From NCBI GenBank assembly GCA_023301405.1, contig JALZUX010000643.1, positions 1 through 9,035 on the forward strand: DNA of 9,035 nucleotides, given 5' to 3'. This document shows, in pieces, positions 1 through 9,035 of this stretch. The position numbers and the translations under genes were made by a program. The DNA comes from Granulosicoccaceae bacterium (GTDB taxonomy: Bacteria; Pseudomonadota; Gammaproteobacteria; Granulosicoccales; Granulosicoccaceae). Positions within the stretch are counted from its first letter, which is position 1. The number at the start of each line of letters is the position of its first letter. Below the pieces are notes generated by a model. It did no database searches, was not told where the DNA came from, and saw nothing but the letters and a program-made list of their open reading frames with translations.

Positions 1-300
1 GCCGATGTACTAGACGGCGTAGCACTACAGCTGCCAGATGAAAATGGTGATGGGCGCGAGGACGTTTATGATGCCGGCACTCTTGAAGCAGAACCGCTTT
101 TGCGTACCGGTGTTGGAGGCCTGGGTGGTGGATGTTCAATCCAACCGCTTCATGCACGTCAGGCTGAAGGCCCTATTGATTTTCTTTTTCTGTACCTTTT
201 AGTTCTAGCTTTCCTCGGCACACAAAGAATGAAAGTGATGCCTACAGGTGTTGCTAATAAAAAATTATTAACCAGCTTTAATATAAGGATTGAAGTATGA
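1..300 (+). CDS. C-terminal end of an exported Ca-binding (TSP3-like) protein with a JDVT-CTERM-like sorting tail (5' partial)
   Basis: The frame is open from the left edge to the TGA at 298-300, so only the last 99 residues are visible. Near the start is an Asp-rich loop, DENGDGREDVYD, of the DxDxDG type found in thrombospondin type-3-like calcium-binding repeats. A Gly-rich linker follows, then GGGC with Cys at visible residue 45. About 15 residues later comes a hydrophobic segment (FLFLYLLVLAFLG, residues 61-73) followed by Arg and Lys. Gly-Gly-Cys, spacer, Asp, hydrophobic helix and basic end match the Cys-containing C-terminal sorting signals (JDVT-CTERM type) that are thought to be removed by an intramembrane protease. 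Unusually, about 20 further residues follow the basic cluster, whereas such tails normally end there. The stop overlaps the next start (ATGA), suggesting an operon with translational coupling. The N-terminus and full function are out of view. Confidence 0.75.
   Translation, partial: ADVLDGVALQLPDENGDGREDVYDAGTLEAEPLLRTGVGGLGGGCSIQPLHARQAEGPIDFLFLYLLVLAFLGTQRMKVMPTGVANKKLLTSFNIRIEV
285..289 (+). promoter_or_regulatory. Shine-Dalgarno site for the TSP3-repeat gene
   Basis: AAGGA lies 7 nt before the ATG at 297-299. It supports that start and not the in-frame ATG 27 nt downstream, which has no such site. The site lies inside the 3' end of the preceding gene, consistent with coupled translation through the ATGA overlap. 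Confidence 0.7.
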
Positions 301-1577
301 ATTACTCTGAACCAGCAAAATCAATGTTGGCCTCTGAGGTAACCGGGGCAGCAAGTAAATTATGCCTTAAACCCAGTGCATTAATCATAGGATCTTTGTT
401 ATGGTTGAGCGTCTCTGGAAACGCTTTTGCGATGGTTGACACAGACTCCGATGGTGTGCCTGATGAAGTTGAAATAGCAGAGGGGACTAACCCTAATGCC
501 GCGGACAGCTTTCTGGATAGTGATGGTGACGGGCAACCTGATTACCTGGATATTGATTCCGATGGTGATGGGTTGTTGGATATATTCGAAGATGGCCTCT
601 ATCCTTACTATGACCGTGACAGTGACGGGATACCTGCCTATCTGGATGATGATGACTATGCCCACCAGGTTGGTAATGCGAACAATCTTGTGCAAGCTTT
701 GTTTGACCCTGATGATGACGGAGTCGCTTCTTTTCAGGATTCATCGCTTAATAAGCCATTCATTGACAGTGACGGGGACTTGGTACCTGATGCAGTGGAG
801 GTCGCGCAGAGTTCAGATCCGGCCGATGCAAGTAGCTTTAAAGATACTGACTTTGACGGCGTGCCGAATTACTTAGACCTCGATGACGACAACGATAATA
901 TTCCCGATGCCATTGAAGGTGATGGCGATTCAGATCAGGACGGACTATCAAACTTTCGAGATCCTGATAGTGATGGTGATGGTGCCAGTGATGAGTTGGA
1001 GGGCACCGGTGATGTTAACGGTGATTTCTTCCCGAACTTTCTTGACCCGACTACAACCAGTAGAGTGCCGACAGGCCCTGACTCAGATGCTGATGGGATT
1101 TCTGATGCAGTAGAGGGTTTGGATGACACTGACTCTGACGGTACGCAGGATTTTCTAGACATGGACAGTGATGGTGACCTGATCCCTGACAGTGTTGAAG
1201 GCAATGCTGATTTAGAGGGTGATTTTATTCCTAATTATTTAGATCTAGACAGCGATGGCGATGGTATTCTTGATCGAATCGAGCTGACAGGTGATCCAGA
1301 TGGAGATGGTTATCCTAACTACCTGGATGCTGACAGCGACGGAGATGGTGCACCTGATATGATAGAACTCCTTGCCGATGCTGATGGTGACGGCACGCCT
1401 GCCTTCCTTGATGTTAATGAAGTCACCGGTGGCGGGGCGCCGAGTACAGTGGTGACAGGGGTTGGTGGGTGTACGTTTGTCGGGGCGAGCATTAGTGGGC
1501 CTGTTGATCCTGGTTTACTGGCTTTGTTGGTGGCAGGATTTATTGGCGTATTTCGCACTCGTAAACTTCGTGGCTAG
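297..1577 (+). CDS. Exported TSP3-like calcium-binding repeat protein with JDVT-CTERM-like sorting tail
   Basis: This 426-residue protein is likely exported and then anchored at the cell surface. A Sec signal peptide is visible: Lys21, a hydrophobic stretch at about 28-41, and Ala-Phe-Ala with likely cleavage after residue 45. Its N-region is long, about 26 residues. Residues about 48-375 carry 19 DxDxDG-type acidic loops as in thrombospondin type-3 repeats, which bind calcium. They mostly alternate between a loop ending P-N/D-Y/F-L-D and a loop ending D-x-x-E. Some loops deviate at the Gly position (DSDGDLVPD, DVNGDFFPN, DLEGDFIPN). The C-terminus has VGGC (Cys392), a spacer, Asp404, a hydrophobic segment at about 406-419 and the basic end RTRKLRG, matching JDVT-CTERM-type tails. 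A plain GlyGly-CTERM would lack the Cys. The gene overlaps the upstream gene by ATGA, and that product has the same type of tail. No enzymatic domain is seen, so the role may be structural or adhesive; this is inference. Confidence 0.85.
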   Translation: MNYSEPAKSMLASEVTGAASKLCLKPSALIIGSLLWLSVSGNAFAMVDTDSDGVPDEVEIAEGTNPNAADSFLDSDGDGQPDYLDIDSDGDGLLDIFEDGLYPYYDRDSDGIPAYLDDDDYAHQVGNANNLVQALFDPDDDGVASFQDSSLNKPFIDSDGDLVPDAVEVAQSSDPADASSFKDTDFDGVPNYLDLDDDNDNIPDAIEGDGDSDQDGLSNFRDPDSDGDGASDELEGTGDVNGDFFPNFLDPTTTSRVPTGPDSDADGISDAVEGLDDTDSDGTQDFLDMDSDGDLIPDSVEGNADLEGDFIPNYLDLDSDGDGILDRIELTGDPDGDGYPNYLDADSDGDGAPDMIELLADADGDGTPAFLDVNEVTGGGAPSTVVTGVGGCTFVGASISGPVDPGLLALLVAGFIGVFRTRKLRG

Positions 1578-1602
1578 TTGCACTAGCTAATGCTTGAAGA
1601 AT

Positions 1603-1623
1603 AAAGGGCCTTGGTGGCCCTTT
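1603..1623. terminator. Intrinsic terminator, probably bidirectional
   Basis: A perfect 8-bp stem, AAAGGGCC / GGCCCTTT, encloses a 5-nt loop (TTGGT). It lies 25 nt after the TAG of the plus-strand gene and 12 nt beyond the stop of the convergent truC. The U-tract is short (TTT from the stem, then CGCATTT). On the minus strand the stem is followed by ATTCTTC. It could serve both converging genes. Confidence 0.75.
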
Positions 1624-1634
1624 CGCATTTCCTG

Positions 1635-2369
1635 TTAGTCCCACTGCCATGCAGGGTCCGCAAGAACAGTATTAAACTGACCATCGTCGACACCGATGAT
1701 TTGGCGTACATCTGCATTCAGTTCAATTTCGCGACCATCGGCGGGATGGCAAAAGATCAGTTTCTGTGCATGCAACAAGAGCCTTTGACTGTTGTAGTGA
1801 TCGGTGAAAAACCGGTTGTGTGATGCTTTTCCATAACTGGTGTCGCCGATCACTGGATGCTTGATATGTTTCATGTGCATCCTGATCTGGTGTCTTCTGC
1901 CGGTAGCGGGTTTTACATCTACCAGGCTGTAGCGGGTGGTGGGGTAGCGATCAATTTGATGCGGCAGTTCAATGCGAGCTAGCCGTTGATAAGCCGTACG
2001 TGCTGAATTGCGCTCTGGGTTTTTGGCATCGCGATCTTTGATTGCATAGTCGATGTTTCCTACGGCGTCTGTATAGCCCCTTACGACTGCTAAATAGTGT
2101 TTGCTAACCAGTTGACGCTCGAATTGTTGGGAAAGGGATCTTGCGCTGTCGCTGTCTAATGCAAACAGCAGTACTCCAGACGTTGGTTTGTCCAGCCGGT
2201 GAACCGGGTACAAAAATCGACCGCATTGCTCACGTAGTCGTCGTAAGACATTGTCTTGTTCATGGACATCGAGTTTACTGCGATGAACCAGCAATCCCGA
2301 AGGTTTTGCCACGGCAATCAGATGCTGATCCTGAAACAGTACTGTCAGGTCTTCTATGGGCAAGGCCAT
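1635..2369 (-). CDS. truC: tRNA pseudouridine synthase C (RluA/RluC/RluD family)
   Basis: The 244-residue product belongs to the RluA-type pseudouridine synthases. The catalytic motif HRLDKPTSG is intact with Asp60 as the nucleophile, and AVAKPSGLLVHRS lies near the N-terminus. The later segments RYPTTRYSLVDVKPATGRRHQIRMH and HPVIGDTSYGK match E. coli TruC (from memory) more closely than RluC or RluD. There is no N-terminal S4 domain, which also fits TruC. TruC makes pseudouridine 65 in the TΨC stem-loop region of certain tRNAs. The ATG at 2369-2367 is the natural start by alignment with TruC, although no convincing Shine-Dalgarno precedes it. The start is only 9 nt from the end of a MITE-like element that separates this gene from the co-oriented upstream TIM-barrel gene. 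A convergent terminator hairpin lies just beyond the 3' end. Confidence 0.88.
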   Translation of the reverse strand: MALPIEDLTVLFQDQHLIAVAKPSGLLVHRSKLDVHEQDNVLRRLREQCGRFLYPVHRLDKPTSGVLLFALDSDSARSLSQQFERQLVSKHYLAVVRGYTDAVGNIDYAIKDRDAKNPERNSARTAYQRLARIELPHQIDRYPTTRYSLVDVKPATGRRHQIRMHMKHIKHPVIGDTSYGKASHNRFFTDHYNSQRLLLHAQKLIFCHPADGREIELNADVRQIIGVDDGQFNTVLADPAWQWD

Positions 2370-2378
2370 CGTAAGCTG

Positions 2379-2544
2379 CTAGGTGGCTGTCGAAGAACCA
2401 GGAGCGACTACGGGCGAGTTGTTTTGGCCAGCTATTAAGATTAACCTCGCGACAGAAGAACAACTATTCTCCCTTACTGATCGAAATATCTGACTCAAAA
2501 TCTCACGCCCTTGCAGCGACCCTAGGTCTCTGACAGTCACCTAG
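2379..2544 (-). mobile_element. MITE-like element, copy A (166 bp, terminal inverted repeats)
   Basis: The ends are near-perfect inverted repeats: CTAGGTGGCTGTC at 2379-2391 and GACAGTCACCTAG at 2532-2544, 12 of 13 bp matching. Weaker symmetry continues to about 28 bp (about 20 of 28). Read on the minus strand, the element is homologous to 5835-6003. Shared blocks in the same order and almost the same spacing include ACTGTC, GAGTCAGATA, GAATAGT, TAATAGCTGGCC, GTTCT and CAGCCAC. By hand count about 108 of 145 aligned positions match, leaving out a poorly aligning 17-nt patch. There is no room for a transposase, so it would be non-autonomous. CTAG occurs at both ends and may be a 4-bp target duplication or part of the inverted repeat. 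The right-hand CTAG contains the stop codon of the 2541-3458 gene. Family assignment is not possible by eye. Confidence 0.8.
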
Positions 2545-3458
2545 CTGACATTTTCACTGGTTTTTTCTTCCTTGAGCTGTACCGTCTGGTCTACTTCTTC
2601 TTTTATTAGACGCGCCCATATGTCTTCGACCCAGCTTTTCATGATCAGGGATTCTTGCCATCGATCGGACATTTCCATGCCATCGGGGCCGGTCATGGCG
2701 TACTCGGGCGGGGCCAGCTCTGTTTGGAATATCAGTGTGTCGTTGCCACTGGCGCGTTTACGCCAGAGCCGAAATCCGGCTTCCCACCAGTCAAGAAATT
2801 GCACGACCCATTGCTGATGTTGTGGGAACTCAAGCTGCAACTGAATTTGTTGAGCTGATGCAACTCGTCCCTGGAAGGCATCGGCGCGCTGCAAAATTTT
2901 TCCGACCATCTCTTGGGCATCTTTCGAGAGGGGAAGTGCAAACTCACGTTCAACTACATAATGCGACAAATCTACGCTGAGTCGCATATCAGGTACCGCT
3001 TCCAGCAGTTGAGTGGTGTAGCTAAGATCGTTGGTGACCGAGTTTCGATGTGTTTCGAATTCGATGGTGACGCCTTCTTTCTCTGCCTCTTCCATCCAGT
3101 CTTGAACCATCAGTGAGGCTTCATCAACACTGCTGGGGATTGCTTGAGCAATTATATTGACGGCAACCGCATTGAACTCATGGGCCATTTGTAGAACCGG
3201 CAGCATATCTTCCATACTCGCCGGGAATGCATTGATTACACAACCGAGTTCGTATTGTTGGAACAAGGGCAGCGTTTTGTAGGCCGTTTCGGTATCTGCA
3301 GCGCCCAGATTGATGGCCATACCGGCATAGCCAGCATCGCGAACCAGGGCGAAAGCTTCTTCGGTAGTGACGGCTGGATGACTGCCTCTGCCGGCGTCCA
3401 TCGCCCAAAGCGATTGGTATAAGTCTAGTCTTGGCAAGCTGGTCTCCGATAGGGCCAT
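2541..3458 (-). CDS. Xylose-isomerase-like TIM-barrel protein (sugar phosphate isomerase/epimerase type)
   Basis: The 305-residue sequence has the layout of the AP-endonuclease-2/xylose-isomerase-like TIM-barrel superfamily, whose members use a divalent metal to isomerise or epimerise sugars or, more rarely, do other chemistry. Visible candidate metal or substrate residues are Glu135 (IEFETHRNS), Asp163 and His166 (SVDLSHYVVE) and Glu247 (FQTELAPPEY). The expected histidine on the seventh strand is not obvious, since the matching segment reads AFQGRVASAQQ. The start at 3458-3456 leaves about 12 residues before the first conserved segment (LYQSLWAMD), which is plausible, but no clear Shine-Dalgarno is present. 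The C-terminus ends in a Lys/Glu-rich tail. The TAG stop lies inside the terminal CTAG of the adjacent MITE-like element, and truC follows beyond the element. The substrate is unknown and the context does not reveal it. Confidence 0.75.
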   Translation of the reverse strand: MALSETSLPRLDLYQSLWAMDAGRGSHPAVTTEEAFALVRDAGYAGMAINLGAADTETAYKTLPLFQQYELGCVINAFPASMEDMLPVLQMAHEFNAVAVNIIAQAIPSSVDEASLMVQDWMEEAEKEGVTIEFETHRNSVTNDLSYTTQLLEAVPDMRLSVDLSHYVVEREFALPLSKDAQEMVGKILQRADAFQGRVASAQQIQLQLEFPQHQQWVVQFLDWWEAGFRLWRKRASGNDTLIFQTELAPPEYAMTGPDGMEMSDRWQESLIMKSWVEDIWARLIKEEVDQTVQLKEEKTSENVS

Positions 3459-3543
3459 AACACTGAGTATGGACCAATGGAGGTCCCGTTGCAGTGCCTA
3501 CTTTGAGAGTGATGTCCGCAGTGGCTTTAAAATGCGGTAGAAA

Positions 3544-3552
3544 AGTATACCA
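3544..3552 (-). promoter_or_regulatory. Candidate extended -10 promoter for the TIM-barrel gene
   Basis: On the minus strand TGG-TATACT matches an extended -10 (TGn followed by 5 of 6 bases of TATAAT). It lies about 86 nt before the ATG at 3458. No good -35 box is seen at 16-18 nt spacing, which extended -10 promoters can tolerate. Confidence 0.35.
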
Positions 3553-3615
3553 AAACGCTGCATTGCCGCAGTTGCTAATTTTTACAATTGAGTGGCTGAG
3601 CACTAATTGCTGGAT

Positions 3616-3644
3616 TCGACAGCGCTAAAATGCTGGCATATAAA
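3616..3644 (+). promoter_or_regulatory. Candidate distal sigma-70 promoter
   Basis: TCGACA (5 of 6 to TTGACA) at 3616-3621 and TATAAA (5 of 6 to TATAAT) at 3639-3644 are separated by exactly 17 nt. It points toward aqpZ, whose ATG is 234 nt after the -10, so a transcript from here would have a long, hairpin-containing leader. It could instead start a small RNA. No experimental support is available. Confidence 0.35.
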
Positions 3645-3832
3645 GTGAGATCATTAGGGCAGAGCGCCGTGGGTTTAGTATCATGGGGGCCCTTTAACAA
3701 AGGTTTACTGAACCGTACTGGTGTTCAGCGCTGGTCTGGCTATCATGCTGGCTGCGAAAGTCCGGGCGGTTGAGCCCTAGTCGCGTGTAAATGGGATGTT
3801 GCGAGTAGGTTCGTTCTCCCGCAAAAAAAATA

Positions 3833-3838
3833 TATAAT
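3833..3838 (+). promoter_or_regulatory. Candidate proximal -10 box for aqpZ
   Basis: A perfect TATAAT lies in an A/T tract (3823-3840), 40 nt before the aqpZ ATG. The segment 17 nt upstream (TTCGTT at 3810-3815) is a poor -35, so the promoter may be weak or activator-dependent, or the match may reflect the A/T-rich context. Confidence 0.4.
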
Positions 3839-3864
3839 ATTCTCAGATTTTCAATTCAACAACA

Positions 3865-3869
3865 AAGGA
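3865..3869 (+). promoter_or_regulatory. Shine-Dalgarno site fixing the aqpZ start
   Basis: AAGGA lies 8 nt before the ATG at 3878-3880. An in-frame TTG at 3872 is only 2 nt from it and therefore unlikely, so the ATG is preferred and the protein is 297 residues long. Confidence 0.75.
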
Positions 3870-3877
3870 AATTGTTT

Positions 3878-4771
3878 ATGCACTTTCATAATAAATACCT
3901 GGCCGAATTCTTCGGCACTTTCTGGCTGGTGCTAGGAGGATGCGGTAGCGCGATATTTGCAGCTACTTTCGCAGGTGATATTGGTATTAATATCGGCTTG
4001 GTCGGCGTTTCTTTGGCGTTTGGTCTAACCGTCATGACTATGGCCTATGCGGTCGGTCACGTGTCTGGTGGTCACTTTAACCCGGCTGTTTCAATTGGTC
4101 TTTGGGTTGGTGGTCGATTTGGGTTTGGGCACCTGATTCCCTACATTGTTTTTCAAGTATTGGGCGCGATTGCAGCCGCTTTCGTTCTGCAGTGGTTTGT
4201 CACTGATGCTGGTGGTGGAGCGGCCGCTGCCTCACTGAATGCTGGCGCAGCGCCATCCTTAGCTTCGAATGGATTCGGGGATCTGTCTCCGGGTAAATTC
4301 AGCATGGAATCAGTAATTTTGATGGAAGTCATAATGACTGCCTTCTTTCTTATCATCATCATGGGTTCAACTGACGAGCGCGCACCTGCCGGTTTCGCAC
4401 CAATTGCGATAGGCCTTGGTTTGACTCTGATCCACCTGATATCTATCCCTGTTTCAAATACCTCTGTTAACCCGGCTCGAAGTACTGGTCCAGCATTAGT
4501 TTCACATTTCTTTGGTGAGGGTGATGCCGCTCTTATTACACAGCTGCCAATCTTCTGGATTGCGCCAATTGTTGGTGCCGTACTGGGCGCTATTTTCTAT
4601 CGCTTGATCGTTTCTGGCGCTGCTCCTGCAGCCGCAGCGGCAGCACCTGAGCGTGTAGAAGTAAGAGAGCCTGAGTATCGCGATCGTGGTGAATATCGCA
4701 GTGAGCGAGTTGAGTACCGTGACCGTGATCGTGGCGACTATCGCGACGAGTACCGTGATGAGCGTTACTAG
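3878..4771 (+). CDS. aqpZ: Aquaporin Z-type water channel with a charged C-terminal extension
   Basis: This inner-membrane MIP-family channel allows rapid water flow under osmotic change. The core (about residues 5-245) follows E. coli AqpZ closely: [17 protein letters not shown] at the start, HFNPAVSIG (first NPA at 68-70), [31 protein letters not shown] (second NPA at 198-200). The selectivity-filter residues typical of AqpZ are in place: Phe48, His186, Thr195 and Arg201. These indicate a water channel, not a glycerol channel. After the last membrane helix come an Ala/Pro linker (248-257) and a 40-residue tail (258-297) in which 33 residues are Arg, Asp, Glu or Tyr, with 12 Arg, 15 acidic residues and 6 Tyr. 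E. coli AqpZ (about 231 residues) lacks this tail. By aquaporin topology the tail should be cytoplasmic. The start is set by a good Shine-Dalgarno, and the gene appears monocistronic with its own terminator. Confidence 0.95.
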
Positions 4772-4800
4772 TCACTAGTTAAGCGTGAAAAGTTGTACTG

Positions 4801-4830
4801 AAAAGCGGTGCTTCGGCACCGCTTTTTTTT
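4801..4830 (+). terminator. Strong intrinsic terminator after aqpZ
   Basis: A perfect 11-bp stem, AAAAGCGGTGC / GCACCGCTTTT (4801-4811 and 4816-4826), is closed by a stable UUCG tetraloop and followed by T residues to 4830 (eight T in a row from 4823). It lies 30 nt after the aqpZ stop. It probably also stops the convergent dehydrogenase gene, although the minus-strand T run is only the TTTT of the stem. Confidence 0.92.
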
Positions 4831-4839
4831 GCCTGCGAT

Positions 4840-5781
4840 TTAGTATCCTGAATTGTAATTGACCAAGCCGTTACTGAGATCGTCAGCACCGGTACCTGAA
4901 TCTAGCCGCTGTATAGCTTTGGCTATCTGATCTACCGATAAACCGATTTGTGTGGGGCCCGCAATGTGCGGGGTGAGTAAGATATCCGGGTGTGTCCAGA
5001 TGCGGTTATCGTGCGGCAGCGGTTCTGTGGCGCAAACATCCAGTAGTGCACCCGACAAGTGTTTTTCATCAAGCGCGGCGATTAGGTCTTTTTCCACAAC
5101 GTGAGCGCCACGCCCAACGTTAATGAAAGTTGCCCCCGCCGGCAGGTAATTTAGCAGTTGCTTGTCTATTAAGCCGCCGGTTTGCGGGGTTAAGGGCAGC
5201 ACACAGACCAGTGTATTTAACGGGTTCATAAATTCCTGAAGTTGATCATTGCCGTGGAATATCTTGCACGTACTCGCCTCTGATGCCGTTCGTTTCCAGC
5301 CGCTGACATGGTAGCCGGCAGATTGCAGTTTGGTGGCTATTCGGCTACCGATAATTCCCATGCCCATTATTCCGACGCGATAATCCGCCGCATTGATGTC
5401 GGCGAGTGGCAGCCACTGTGTTTGCGACTGTAGATTCTGGTACTGGTCGAAGTGCCGGTGCCAGCGTAAAACCCCGAAATGTACGTATTCGGCTATTTTG
5501 TCCGCCATTCCCGCATCGGTCAGCCGAATGATCGGTACAGCATCTGGAAGGCCCGGATGATCAAGTAAATGATCAACTCCCGCTGCCAATGAAAATATAG
5601 CTTGAAGGTTTTTAGCATTGTCGAAAAAATTGTCTGGCGCGCCCCAGCAAATTGCACAGTCGAGCTCTTCTGGGTTACCAACATCAGGCCACTGCCGTAA
5701 GGTGTGCCCGGGAAGTTTGTTGCGCAGCGTCTCCAGGGTTTGATCTGATGTGTCGTCGATTGAAAAAAAACTGATATTCAT
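4840..5781 (-). CDS. GhrA-like D-2-hydroxyacid dehydrogenase (glyoxylate/hydroxypyruvate reductase type)
   Basis: The 313-residue cytosolic enzyme is of the D-isomer-specific 2-hydroxyacid dehydrogenase family, which reduces 2-keto acids such as glyoxylate and hydroxypyruvate with NAD(P)H. Its length matches GhrA. The Rossmann motif is GMGIIG (residues 140-145), and the catalytic set is Arg224 (VGRGAHV), Glu253 (CATEPLP) and His272 (TPHIAGPT). The substrate loop SLAAGVDHLLD (64-74) is typical of the GhrA branch. After the second Rossmann strand, GWKRT carries Lys163-Arg164 where NADP-preferring enzymes place basic residues, so NADPH use is likely (inference). The ATG at 5781-5779 gives the family-like N-terminus but has no clear Shine-Dalgarno. 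A MITE-like element begins 54 bp upstream. No neighbouring gene points to a pathway, and the exact substrate is not shown by the sequence. Confidence 0.85.
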   Translation of the reverse strand: MNISFFSIDDTSDQTLETLRNKLPGHTLRQWPDVGNPEELDCAICWGAPDNFFDNAKNLQAIFSLAAGVDHLLDHPGLPDAVPIIRLTDAGMADKIAEYVHFGVLRWHRHFDQYQNLQSQTQWLPLADINAADYRVGIMGMGIIGSRIATKLQSAGYHVSGWKRTASEASTCKIFHGNDQLQEFMNPLNTLVCVLPLTPQTGGLIDKQLLNYLPAGATFINVGRGAHVVEKDLIAALDEKHLSGALLDVCATEPLPHDNRIWTHPDILLTPHIAGPTQIGLSVDQIAKAIQRLDSGTGADDLSNGLVNYNSGY

Positions 5782-5834
5782 GTCAGGTCGGCTTTTTTGT
5801 TGTGTGGCAGTTGGTTGCCAGTGGGTGGTGTTGT

Positions 5835-6003
5835 CTAGGTGGACTGTCCGAGAATTAGAGTCTTGAGCTCCGTTGTATTATTTCGAGTCAGATAATTCCG
5901 ATCGATTAAGGCGAATAGTCATTTTTCTTTAACGAAATCGTTCGTAATAGCTGGCCGAAAGACCGCGACCGCAGTAGATTCCAGTTCTCAGCCAGCCACT
6001 GTG
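5835..6003 (+). mobile_element. MITE-like element, copy B (about 169 bp, diverged)
   Basis: This segment is homologous to 2379-2544 read on the minus strand. The left end CTAGGTGGACTGTC (5835-5848) matches the copy A terminus with one inserted G. GAGTCAGATA (5885-5894), TAATAGCTGGCC (5945-5956) and CAGCCAC (5993-5999) are identical to copy A. The distance from TAATAGCTGGCC to CAGCCAC is exactly the same in both copies, and the 49 versus 50 nt between the first two blocks differ by one base. Inverted symmetry between its own ends persists in GAGAATTAGAGTC (5850-5862) against the complement of GATTCCAGTTCTC, 10 of 13. The right terminal CTAG is lost (TGTG). It looks older or more decayed than copy A. 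No reading frame is present. Confidence 0.75.
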
Positions 6004-6059
6004 GGTGCCGCGTAATAGTAGCGCGTTGTTTCTCTAGAAATAATAAACTGCACGAGCGG

Positions 6060-6090
6060 TTGACCATACGGAAAATAAGAAAACTATATG
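6060..6090 (+). promoter_or_regulatory. Weak promoter candidate for the ABC exporter
   Basis: TTGACC (5 of 6 to the -35 consensus) at 6060-6065 is followed after a long 19-nt spacer by TATATG at 6085-6090. Spacing and -10 match are both suboptimal. It would give a leader of about 100 nt. It is listed as the best candidate in the gap, not as a firm site. Confidence 0.25.
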
Positions 6091-6198
6091 TAGTGGAGCC
6101 TGCCCGATCTATGTTGCTTTGTAAAATTGGCGTTTCATTTGGTCAAAGTAGTTAGAAAATCACACGAACTTTATTGAGTCTGATGATGACAGTACACA

Positions 6199-8010
6199 AT
6201 GCGTAGTGCACCAAGGCAGGAAGGTCCGCACAAGGATCGAAACGATTTTGCCAATCTTGGCAAGCTATCCCCGTATGTGTGGCGGTATGGAAGGCGCGTA
6301 TCTGTCGCGCTTTGTTGCCTGTTATTGGCGAAGCTTGCAACGGTGTGCATACCGTTGATGCTGAAAGGCATTATTGATTCCCTTGATACGCAAACAGATG
6401 GCCTGTTAAGTAGTAACGATCAGCTGGTGGTCGTTGTGCCTATGGCGTTGCTGTTGAGTTATGGGGCTTTACGGTTAGCTAGTGGGTTATTTGGTGAGTT
6501 GCGCGATATCCTTTTTTCCCGGGTTCGTTACAGCGCTATGCATCAAATGGCAGTTGATGTACTGCAACATTTGCATAAGTTATCGTTGCGATTCCACCTT
6601 GAACGTAACACCGGTGGTATATCACGTGATCTTGAACGTGGCACCAGGAGCCTGGCGTCGGTGCTGAATTTATTGGTATTCAGTATTTTACCAACGATTG
6701 CGGAATTTTTACTGGTTGGTGGTATTTTGTTGTTTAACTATGACTGGGCGTTGATGGCAGCTATTCTTTTGACCGTTGCTTTTTATGTTGTGCTTACTTT
6801 ATCGATGAGTAAATGGCGAATGAACTTTCGCCATGAAATGAATAAGTATGATAGCGCCGCTAATGGCCGAGCCATTGATAGTCTGCTGAATTATGAAACG
6901 GTCAAGTATTTCAATAATGAAAAAGTAGAAACAGAAAACTATAACGAACAACTGGGCTTTTGGGGGGCGGCAGGGCAGAAAACGCAAATCAGTTTATCAG
7001 CGCTGAATTTCGGGCAAGGTGCCATCGTTACAATAGGCGTTACAACTATCATGATGCTTGCGGCAAAGGATGTAGCGTCTGGTGAGATCACTATCGGTGA
7101 TCTAGTACTGATCAATGCCCTTATGCTGCAGTTGTTTATACCGTTGAGTATCCTGGGCTCTGTGTATAGATCATTGCAATACTCATTGGCCGATATGGAT
7201 TTAGTGATCAAGTTACTTGAACAGGTGCCCGAAATACAGGACGTCGAGAATGCTAAGCCGCTTTTGGTAAAGCACGGCAAACTCGAGTTTGAAAATGTCA
7301 GCTTTCACTATGATGAAAGCCGCCCGATATTGCGCAATATTAATTTCACTATTGAGCCAGGGCAAAAGGTTGCTGTGGTGGGACCTTCAGGCTCTGGCAA
7401 GTCCACTTTGGTGCGGCTAATCTTTCGTTTTTATGATGTGTCAGATGGACTGATTAAAATTGACGGGCAATCAATTGCTGACTGCACGCAGGAAAGTCTG
7501 CGGCGTGTAATTGGTATAGTTCCGCAAGATACTGTGTTGTTTAACGATACAATTCGCTACAACATTGCTTATGCAAAGCTGGATGCGACAGACGAAGCGG
7601 TACTGAACGCTGCGGAAAAAGCCGATCTTGGCCGATTATTATCCCGGTTGCCAGATGGGATGGAAACAGTCGTGGGTGAGCGCGGCTTAAAATTATCTGG
7701 AGGTGAGAAGCAAAGATTGGCGATATCGCGAGTGATTTTAAAGTCTCCTGAAATTATTTTATTTGACGAGGCGACTTCAAGTCTTGATAGCCGTTCTGAA
7801 CAGGCTATTCTTGGTGCTTTACAAAAAGTGTCCAGTCAGGCTACCACGCTTGTCATTGCACACCGGCTATCAACCATCATTGATGCTGACAAAATTGTGG
7901 TGATGGAAGACGGTGTGGTTGTCGAAACCGGAGACCATGAAACTTTATTGAGGAGTGATGGCTTATATAGGCGGTTGTGGGATTTGCAAAGGAGCGAGCA
8001 GCCAAGTTAA
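6199..8010 (+). CDS. Atm1/HMT1-type ABC half-transporter (ABC transporter ATP-binding protein/permease)
   Basis: This 603-residue half-transporter has an N-terminal exporter membrane domain (about 25-335, with hydrophobic helices near 35-60, 77-97, 155-200 and 270-320) and a C-terminal ATPase domain. The ATPase motifs are complete: Walker A GPSGSGKST (395-403), Q-loop Gln443, signature LSGGEKQR (499-506), Walker B IILFDEATSSLD with Asp523 and Glu524, and H-loop His555. The membrane domain has Atm1/ABCB7-type signatures: DSLLNYETVKYFNNE, RSLQYSLADMD, and Arg207, Arg211, Asn270, Gln273 and Gly320, which fall where bacterial Atm1 contacts glutathione (from memory of that structure). The family works as an inner-membrane homodimer exporting glutathione-linked compounds or metal-glutathione conjugates. 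A TGA at 6187 limits the N-terminus, and the ATG at 6199 lacks a clear Shine-Dalgarno. No iron-sulfur assembly or metal-resistance genes are adjacent, so the cargo remains open. Confidence 0.9.
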   Translation: MRSAPRQEGPHKDRNDFANLGKLSPYVWRYGRRVSVALCCLLLAKLATVCIPLMLKGIIDSLDTQTDGLLSSNDQLVVVVPMALLLSYGALRLASGLFGELRDILFSRVRYSAMHQMAVDVLQHLHKLSLRFHLERNTGGISRDLERGTRSLASVLNLLVFSILPTIAEFLLVGGILLFNYDWALMAAILLTVAFYVVLTLSMSKWRMNFRHEMNKYDSAANGRAIDSLLNYETVKYFNNEKVETENYNEQLGFWGAAGQKTQISLSALNFGQGAIVTIGVTTIMMLAAKDVASGEITIGDLVLINALMLQLFIPLSILGSVYRSLQYSLADMDLVIKLLEQVPEIQDVENAKPLLVKHGKLEFENVSFHYDESRPILRNINFTIEPGQKVAVVGPSGSGKSTLVRLIFRFYDVSDGLIKIDGQSIADCTQESLRRVIGIVPQDTVLFNDTIRYNIAYAKLDATDEAVLNAAEKADLGRLLSRLPDGMETVVGERGLKLSGGEKQRLAISRVILKSPEIILFDEATSSLDSRSEQAILGALQKVSSQATTLVIAHRLSTIIDADKIVVMEDGVVVETGDHETLLRSDGLYRRLWDLQRSEQPS

Positions 8011-8015
8011 TCAAG

Positions 8016-8046
8016 CACTCATCGTTCTCTAGAAGAGTGACTTTTA
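8016..8046. terminator. Weak terminator-like hairpin between convergent genes
   Basis: CACTC (8016-8020) pairs with GAGTG (8035-8039), and TTCT (8025-8028) with AGAA (8031-8034), leaving a 4-nt bulge. ACTTTTA follows. It lies between the convergent exporter and DUF1501 genes, where a terminator is expected, but the stem is imperfect and the T run short. Confidence 0.3.
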
Positions 8047-9035
8047 CAGGTGCATGAATCCTAGATCACGAGTCTCAAAATTAGATAAAGACGGTAAAAG
8101 TGTGTTGATCTCTGATTCACTTAAGCCTAACCAGCGTAGCTGGGTAGCGGCGTATTGACTGACAGCAGTGGTCGGCACAATTCGGCCATTACGATAATCG
8201 TCTGGTCCGCTCACCGCTACACGCGGGATTTGACCATAGATGTCGCCACCATTTACTGACCCACCCATCATAATATGGTGATTGCCCCAGCCGTGATCTG
8301 TTCCATCGCCGTTGCCGGACACGCTGCGGCCGAAATCTGAAGTGGTAAAGCTGGTGACGTTGTTCAATTGATTTATTTCAATCAGTGATTGATGAAAAAA
8401 TGCCAACGCCTCTGCTACTTGTTTAAAGAGTTCGGGTTGGATTTCTAATTGATCATCGTGCGTATCAAATCCGGTCATGTTTACGTAAAACAATTGCCGT
8501 GTCATACGAAACTCATCTTTAATGGCGATTAATTTCGCCACCATAGCCAGTTGGCTGGCCAGTGCATTGTTTTTTGGTACCGGGGTTTGTAAGTCTCCCA
8601 GTTTGGCAAGTGCAGCGCCAACGTTGGTTGATAGCACCAGAGCTCTTGTTTGTAGTTCAGCGTATGAACGTTCAAATACGTTGTTGTATTGTTGGTGTAG
8701 CAATTCGATAAAAGCCTGACGTCGTGGCATTTGCCAGTTACCGGTTAGGTCATCCATACCGGCATACGATGACACGCCTTCGCTTTTTATGGTGAAAGCG
8801 GCTTGTTCGCCACCGGCCTGCCATTCGTTATTACCCACTAAGCTTATGGCAGCAAGGTTTGGGTTGGCTTGCTGGCCGGCGAGTATGTCGGTAGTTCGAG
8901 CACCCCATCCACTATTCCATTCATGGTAGTGATCAAGCTTCTGCCATTGGCGAGCCTGATCATGATGTGAAAACAATTGCTCTGGAAGTCGAACACTTCC
9001 ATTTCTTACGTCATCGGGCGTTGCAGGCTCGACTA
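8044..9035 (-). CDS. DUF1501 family protein, C-terminal part (5' end beyond the window)
   Basis: The frame is open from the TAA at 8046-8044 through the right edge, giving about 330 visible residues; the N-terminus is missing. A TTG at 8976 is sometimes picked as a start but lies within conserved sequence (LFSHHDQARQW), and in-frame residues continue upstream to the edge. The sequence fits the DUF1501 family (PF07394), related to sulfatase/alkaline-phosphatase folds and usually exported by the Tat pathway. Seen here are FDTHDDQ (8449-8469), SDFGRSVSGNGDGTDHGWGNHH and MMGGSVNGGDIYGQIP (within about 8230-8345), and a C-terminal ARTTDILAG to LGLSE layout typical of the family. Many bacteria place a DUF1800 gene next to DUF1501; whether that holds lies to the right of this window. 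The biochemical function of the family is not established. Confidence 0.88.
   Translation of the reverse strand, partial: VEPATPDDVRNGSVRLPEQLFSHHDQARQWQKLDHYHEWNSGWGARTTDILAGQQANPNLAAISLVGNNEWQAGGEQAAFTIKSEGVSSYAGMDDLTGNWQMPRRQAFIELLHQQYNNVFERSYAELQTRALVLSTNVGAALAKLGDLQTPVPKNNALASQLAMVAKLIAIKDEFRMTRQLFYVNMTGFDTHDDQLEIQPELFKQVAEALAFFHQSLIEINQLNNVTSFTTSDFGRSVSGNGDGTDHGWGNHHIMMGGSVNGGDIYGQIPRVAVSGPDDYRNGRIVPTTAVSQYAATQLRWLGLSESEINTLLPSLSNFETRDLGFMHL

Follow-up and report, generated by a model that had tools for sequence, protein, structure and literature searches.

A 9,035-nucleotide stretch of the Granulosicoccaceae bacterium genome (GenBank assembly GCA_023301405.1, contig JALZUX010000643.1, positions 1 to 9,035; hereafter the window) carries two diverged copies of a short gene-less element. 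Our analysis supports its assignment to a family of miniature inverted-repeat transposable elements (MITEs) linked to IS1182 and characterized by an unusually conserved, strand-biased predicted fold. It is highly probable that this 166-bp element is non-autonomous, that an IS1182-family transposase acts on it in trans and that it is inserted at CTAG. An unnamed repeat family of at least 13 Gammaproteobacteria families is thus tied to a named transposase family, and a simple landing rule is suggested, in which CTAG sites, stop codons included, are occupied with the gene left unharmed. Should the covarying interior be under selection, a MITE would serve some function that its ends do not account for.

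The two window copies and the wider family

Copy A (2379-2544, minus strand) is a full-length 166-bp element that matches the family profile over its whole length (E 1.1e-32, locus L106). Direct reading of the sequence bore out the 13-bp terminal inverted repeats reported in an earlier note on this DNA: CTAGGTGACTGTC at the 5' end (2532-2544, minus strand) and its counterpart at the 3' end (2379-2391, minus strand; reverse complement CTAGGTGGCTGTC) are identical at 12 of 13 positions. Copy B (5835-6003, plus strand) matches positions 2-163 of the 167 profile positions (E 5e-31, L120); its 5' end, CTAGGTGGACTGTC (5835-5848, plus strand, by sequence and alignment), is one base longer than the consensus, and its right end is decayed, with TGTG in place of the expected CTAG. 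The similarity of the copies is real and shared between them, at a lower level than the 74% once estimated by hand: BLAST among the fetched loci gave 69% over 165 bp (E 3e-16). At 166 and 169 bp, both copies are too short to contain a transposase.

In the host genome (4.03 Mb in 704 contigs), searches returned 52 matches to copy A and 50 to copy B, in overlapping sets, and the likeness of the two copies is therefore not due to chance. The end motif AGGWGSYTGTCCGRGAA was found there 84 times with at most one mismatch and 183 times with at most three, compared with 0 and 65 times for the reversed control. Since copies within a genome are related, such counts do not represent independent events. 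Further copies thus exist, and they have ends coinciding with the CTAGG termini, as the interpretation in the earlier note required. Matches to copy A occurred in 12 of the 57 genomes searched, and the end motif was present in 13 of 14 genomes of the genus (in some of them only 1-3 times) and, with at most one mismatch, in 22 of 369 Gammaproteobacteria genomes, the host being included in each of these counts. Copies of 165-169 bp were identified in 15 of the 21 other end-bearing genomes, which represent 12 families besides that of the host, with the order of motifs mostly the same.

A 167-bp copy, 78% identical to that of L174 and with a folding z of -10.6, is located on plasmid pMPC6-328K of Pseudomonas sp. 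MPC6. Within L381 (3001-3500), this copy abuts the end of an IS1182-like stretch, and one CTAG serves both. Its position beside such a stretch on a Pseudomonas plasmid predicted to be conjugative indicates a possible route of spread between species. A plasmid search with copy A itself and a phage search with L174 gave no match, and three viral contigs carrying the end motif were rejected because they had no second end within three mismatches and no match to the element profile.

The repeat also has a practical effect, as its copies interrupt assemblies: of 20 host contigs retrieved because they contain an end motif, 12 terminate inside or near a copy, so that the repeat evidently fragments the assembly.

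Two further size classes share the ends of the 166-bp class. The 125-bp class (L088, L098-L103, genome G011) has an unrelated AT-rich core and in places abuts the 166-bp class; the 135-146 bp class (L172, L232, L233, L235, genome G267) has another core, and G267 contains 130 end motifs. The occurrence of unrelated 125-bp and 146-bp cores between the same ends points to the ends as the recognized part. In the few and related copies available, both cores likewise fold throughout their length, and one strand is favoured. The classes alternate in arrays, for example, as 166-125-166 bp in L101. Copies of 214-287 bp (L176, L225, L227, L255, L256) hold extra inserts, which in L176 lies at the basal loop region as judged by eye.

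Terminal sequences, CTAG flanks and IS1182 elements

These data raise the question of which enzyme moves the element. The earlier note had left the family unnamed and had proposed looking for a full-length transposon with the same ends. Such transposons were found. In genome G145, two ends 1.8 kb apart surround a 512-aa protein scoring 384 bits against the NCBIfam IS1182 profile (cut-off 270), and it is this score that names the family. A scan of named genomes with the G145 transposase revealed five loci. At four of them, a complete insertion sequence (IS) of ~1.8 kb is present, with both ends no more than one mismatch from the motif and CTAG on both sides; the hosts are Acidiferrobacteraceae HyVt-429 (evidently the G145 contig), a Bathymodiolus symbiont, a Ca. 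Aminicenantes bin and a Methylococcales bin (L209). The fifth locus is truncated and has no such end beside it. The Methylococcales genome (G404) contains eight further single ends of two types, all starting at CTAG and with different flanks, two of which adjoin sequence 83-91% alike to the IS. Related ends, CAGCCTGTCGGACTT, lie between two CTAGs in an annotated IS1182 on Pseudomonas putida plasmid pKF715A. Genome G405 contains 213 end motifs, a full 166-bp copy and a truncated transposase gene that is 91% identical over residues 9-97. The element has in common with the four complete IS1182 members the 17-bp end motif and the CTAG on both sides, which makes an IS1182 transposase its likely mover; it differs from them in lacking a transposase and in sharing nothing but the ends. 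Beside an IS1182 element, a reading frame at 2123-3145 of L192 (minus strand) resembles, by eye, what we take to be a Y1/REP-associated transposase.

The consensus ends are CTAG followed by GWGSCTGTCCGAGAA. The flanks were assessed in 162 distinct full-length copies obtained by a profile search of the fetched loci (205 full-length hits before the removal of identical sequences and of copies truncated at the edge of a locus). Among the 94 copies from genus loci picked by similarity alone, CTAG was found on the left in 44, on the right in 39 and at both ends in 21. The corresponding numbers were 42, 37 and 31 for 48 copies from loci that were selected with a pattern containing CTAG or retrieved after its use, and 10, 5 and 3 for the 20 other copies. 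Over all 162 copies, including the 48 from CTAG-influenced picking, CTAG was present on the left in 96 and on the right in 81; the tetramer just outside the flank was CTAG in 3 of 322 cases. A neighbouring element end joined through one shared tetramer was observed for 41 of the 162 copies.

Both flanks of copy A are CTAG and may represent a target duplication: one is at 2541-2544 and the other, read from the sequence, at 2379-2382 (both on the minus strand). The TAG of the former is the stop codon of a 305-aa frame (2541-3458), and copy A is consequently not wholly intergenic, as both copies had been described to be.

Orthologous loci of relatives lack the element at both window sites. At site A, where the element starts at the stop codon of the upstream gene, none of the 13 loci contains it, and the matches to the two neighbours are 24-192 bp apart; about this stop codon, the relatives carry CTAA (L108), CTGA (L112, L116) and, once, an unoccupied CTAG (L117). 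At site B, it is absent in all four loci with both neighbours (spacers of 122-217 bp vs 417 bp in the window) and in two more loci that lack an intact second neighbour. Many copies, fixed inverted ends, the lack of a transposase and the absence from relatives' sites all agree with the earlier interpretation of a non-autonomous MITE.

A movement scheme can be proposed on this basis. Binding of the transposase to the inverted ends of ~17 bp (GWGSCTGTCCGRGAA) would be followed by excision of the element and its joining to the palindrome CTAG, presumably leaving CTAG on both sides. Since each insertion provides two CTAGs, further elements may land beside it and form CTAG-sharing arrays; the arrays are observed, and the order of events is presumed. 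As CTAG contains TAG, insertion at a stop codon can spare the gene; the stop codon at copy A is observed, and an insertion event there is presumed. A folded single strand, as RNA or displaced DNA, might, at a guess, help movement or host tolerance.

Several results weigh against movement by an IS1182 transposase into CTAG. An intact transposase with the ends of the element was not found in the host genome or in the genus; five of the 14 genus genomes gave only distant IS1182 matches (25-29% identity), and the match in the host genome is a short fragment of 42% identity. The own-genome transposase match at C344 was rejected as the driver because it is a 54-aa open frame at a contig end, and those IS1182 members of the host genus whose ends were visible were rejected because these ends are different. 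None of 17 copy-bearing genomes exceeded the IS1182 cut-off, with weaker or partial matches in seven of them and, in G252, a fragment with 62% identity to the driver across 71 residues. Only three of the 21 end-bearing genomes matched the transposase at E 1e-20, and one of these matches is the IS itself. By eye, the element and the four complete ISs share approximately the first 20 bp only, and the profile of the element found no match in the four ISs; none of them could therefore have given rise to the element by simple internal deletion. CTAG resembles a target duplication, as had been suggested, but its presence at both ends in just 21 of the 94 similarity-picked copies weakens this claim, and an exact pre-insertion site was not recovered.

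The simplest reading of the missing enzymes is that movers come and go whereas the short copies stay; some transposases could also lie in contigs that are missing, and decay would explain the missing CTAGs. For the host genus, where an intact matching transposase was not found, mobilization is presumed. The search for a long element between two ends covered 20 G011 regions and 20 G000 contigs and turned up MITE copies, including decayed ones, along with isolated end-like matches and contig ends. One 1.7-kb end pair (L091) was discarded, as its second end has three mismatches and lies within ordinary genes.

Interior fold and competing explanations

Another important question is whether the interior is filler between the mobile ends. 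Both window copies folded better than all of 200 shuffles each (z -4.9 and -4.0). A fold alignment was built from 52 copies, comprising 40 of 45 distant copies (150-180 bp) and 12 of 36 non-redundant genus copies, both window copies included; the distant copies left out were L186 (symmetrized), L228 and L249 (odd length), L234 (other core) and L185. In L186 (1501-1667), the same GTAGCGAGGG side is present in both arms, which looks like the result of copying from one arm to the other. In the alignment, a single predicted hairpin spans the whole element, with 58 pairs, of which 41 have changes on both sides; 93.9% of cells are paired, compared with 80.9% in shuffles and 35-49% in slid-partner controls. 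Near the base, CGTAGCGAG and CGCAGTAG face each other, partly paired, and are nearly unchanged in the most diverged group (L181, L266-L268). The alignment places the left side of this basal loop region at 2510-2518 in copy A (minus strand), where it has diverged from the family consensus CGTAGCGAG, and the right side at 2405-2412 (minus strand), where CGTAGTCG stands for the consensus CGCAGTAG. The left side also differs in copy B and in L012.

One strand folds better than the other in 44 of 45 distant copies, oriented for this comparison by their loop motifs, and in 55 of 56 copies from the genus, with mean differences of ~20 and ~16 kcal/mol, respectively; with DNA parameters, the same strand was favoured in 51 of 52 copies. 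Such results suggest that pairing appears to be preserved on one strand and that the interior appears not to be filler. We tentatively entertain, at somewhat less than even likelihood, a folded cargo, that is, a mobile structured nucleic acid that IS1182 ends carry across Gammaproteobacteria and whose conserved internal loops act on one strand independently of adjacent genes, either as RNA or as single-stranded DNA during transposition. A scan of the window against Rfam 15 gave no match at E up to 1, and in ten loci nothing exceeded the gathering score; the two matches below it were that of L186 to MIR529, a microRNA model (E 1.8e-7), and a weak one to ncS54 in L181, outside the element.

Could the element instead be mainly a host-useful structured RNA, such as a hairpin at mRNA ends, with mobility as a side issue? 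Stem covariation and conserved loop regions over 13 families, together with the one-strand folding preference, speak in its favour, as does the stop codon of an adjacent gene, which falls within the flanking tetramer in 28 of the 104 copies that lie between open frames (the tetramer is CTAG in 18 of these), genes being taken here as crude open frames of at least 90 aa. However, 70 of 393 other non-coding CTAGs in the loci (loci of at least 1500 bases only) hold a stop codon anyway, and the orientation relative to genes is even, with 35 copies in sense to both neighbours vs 33 antisense to both, and 14 vs 14 at stop codons; no role at mRNA ends is therefore claimed. A sense placement after stop codons that appeared in 38 copies (7 vs 1 at exactly -4) was gone in the 104. 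CTAG insertion combined with the loss of copies inside genes would explain most of the siting. As sites are empty in relatives, and arrays and decayed copies resemble ordinary transposon debris, we regard the RNA explanation as unlikely. Somewhat less doubtful is the proposal that the paired changes arose by quasi-palindrome correction, in which repair copies one arm onto the other, rather than by selection on the fold. The copies are near-palindromes, mixed left and right end types occur, the arms of L186 are symmetrized where relatives have an internal loop, and the conservation of unpaired interior columns, taken together, does not exceed that of paired ones (p 0.56), only particular columns being more conserved. 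Yet correction should erase internal loops and wobble pairs, and both persist; the basal loop columns CGT, CGA and CGCAGTAG are at least 90% conserved. G-T exceeds A-C at paired columns by 305 to 54 on the structure derived from the better-folding strand and by 41 to 14 on a structure of 19 pairs built with G-U pairing disallowed. Both the magnitude of this wobble excess and its sign depend on the strand from which the structure is derived: on that from the other strand, the ratio flips to 96 vs 179, and part of the excess therefore reflects the choice of structure.

As for the mover, CTAG fits YTAR and TA targets, and another transposase (of the IS5, IS701 or IS630 type) with the same ends and such a target might be responsible, the IS1182 match being convergent. 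Most copy-rich genomes examined lack an intact IS1182 transposase, as this explanation would have it, but four IS1182-family elements carry both ends and CTAG flanks, the annotated member with related ends is also CTAG-flanked, and no other transposon was seen between ends of this kind in 40 regions read in G011 and G000; we find it quite improbable. Least credible of all is the view that the element is of a REP-like or attC-like single-strand type and owes its movement to a Y1 transposase or an integron integrase. This would account for the whole-length hairpin, the conserved unpaired bases and the single-strand bias, but the inverted ends, the CTAG flanks and the identity of the ends with those of IS1182 elements speak against it. 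Movement by an IS1182-family transposase thus continues to be our preferred explanation of how the element spreads.

Relation to known systems and neighbouring genes

REP palindromes are repeated folded palindromes located between genes. The element resembles REP/RAYT systems in this respect and differs from them in its length, inverted ends and CTAG flanks, and its mover looks like a DDE transposase, unlike RAYT. Bacterial MITEs such as ERIC, Correia and QMITE are short, gene-less, mostly intergenic and hairpin-forming, with inverted ends. The present element is likewise short, gene-less and mostly intergenic, with inverted ends and a predicted hairpin, and appears to be set apart by its span of 13 families, its covarying interior and its CTAG flanks. 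Short non-autonomous elements and IS1182 are both known kinds; the breadth and the covarying, strand-biased interior are unusual.

QMITE2 forms a stable hairpin, and Coxiella MITEs give small RNAs, according to a MITE review whose main text contains neither of the terms IS1182 and CTAG (PMC10969869); the term IS1182 is also absent from the main text of PMC4853749. In a table row for ISPse1, a captured IS1182 member (PMC3281130), the entries IS1182, 1653, 16/16 and 4 can be taken as family, length, inverted repeats and duplication. Palindromes are said to be targets of some IS1182 members (PMC5678879, citing Siguier et al.), and IS1272, of the same family, is reported there to replace inverted repeats with no target duplication. 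The open-licence papers searched yielded nothing combining MITE, IS1182 and CTAG and, in the titles and abstract beginnings among the matches listed, nothing on this element family.

Elsewhere in the window, a 426-aa protein is encoded at 297-1577, with repeated DSDGDG motifs followed by a Cys-bearing stretch, a hydrophobic helix and basic residues. We assume that the motifs are calcium-binding-like and that the tail resembles a C-terminal sorting signal; the preceding partial frame presumably ends similarly. The frame at 3872-4771 encodes what we take to be an aquaporin-like protein with an unusual charged repeat tail.

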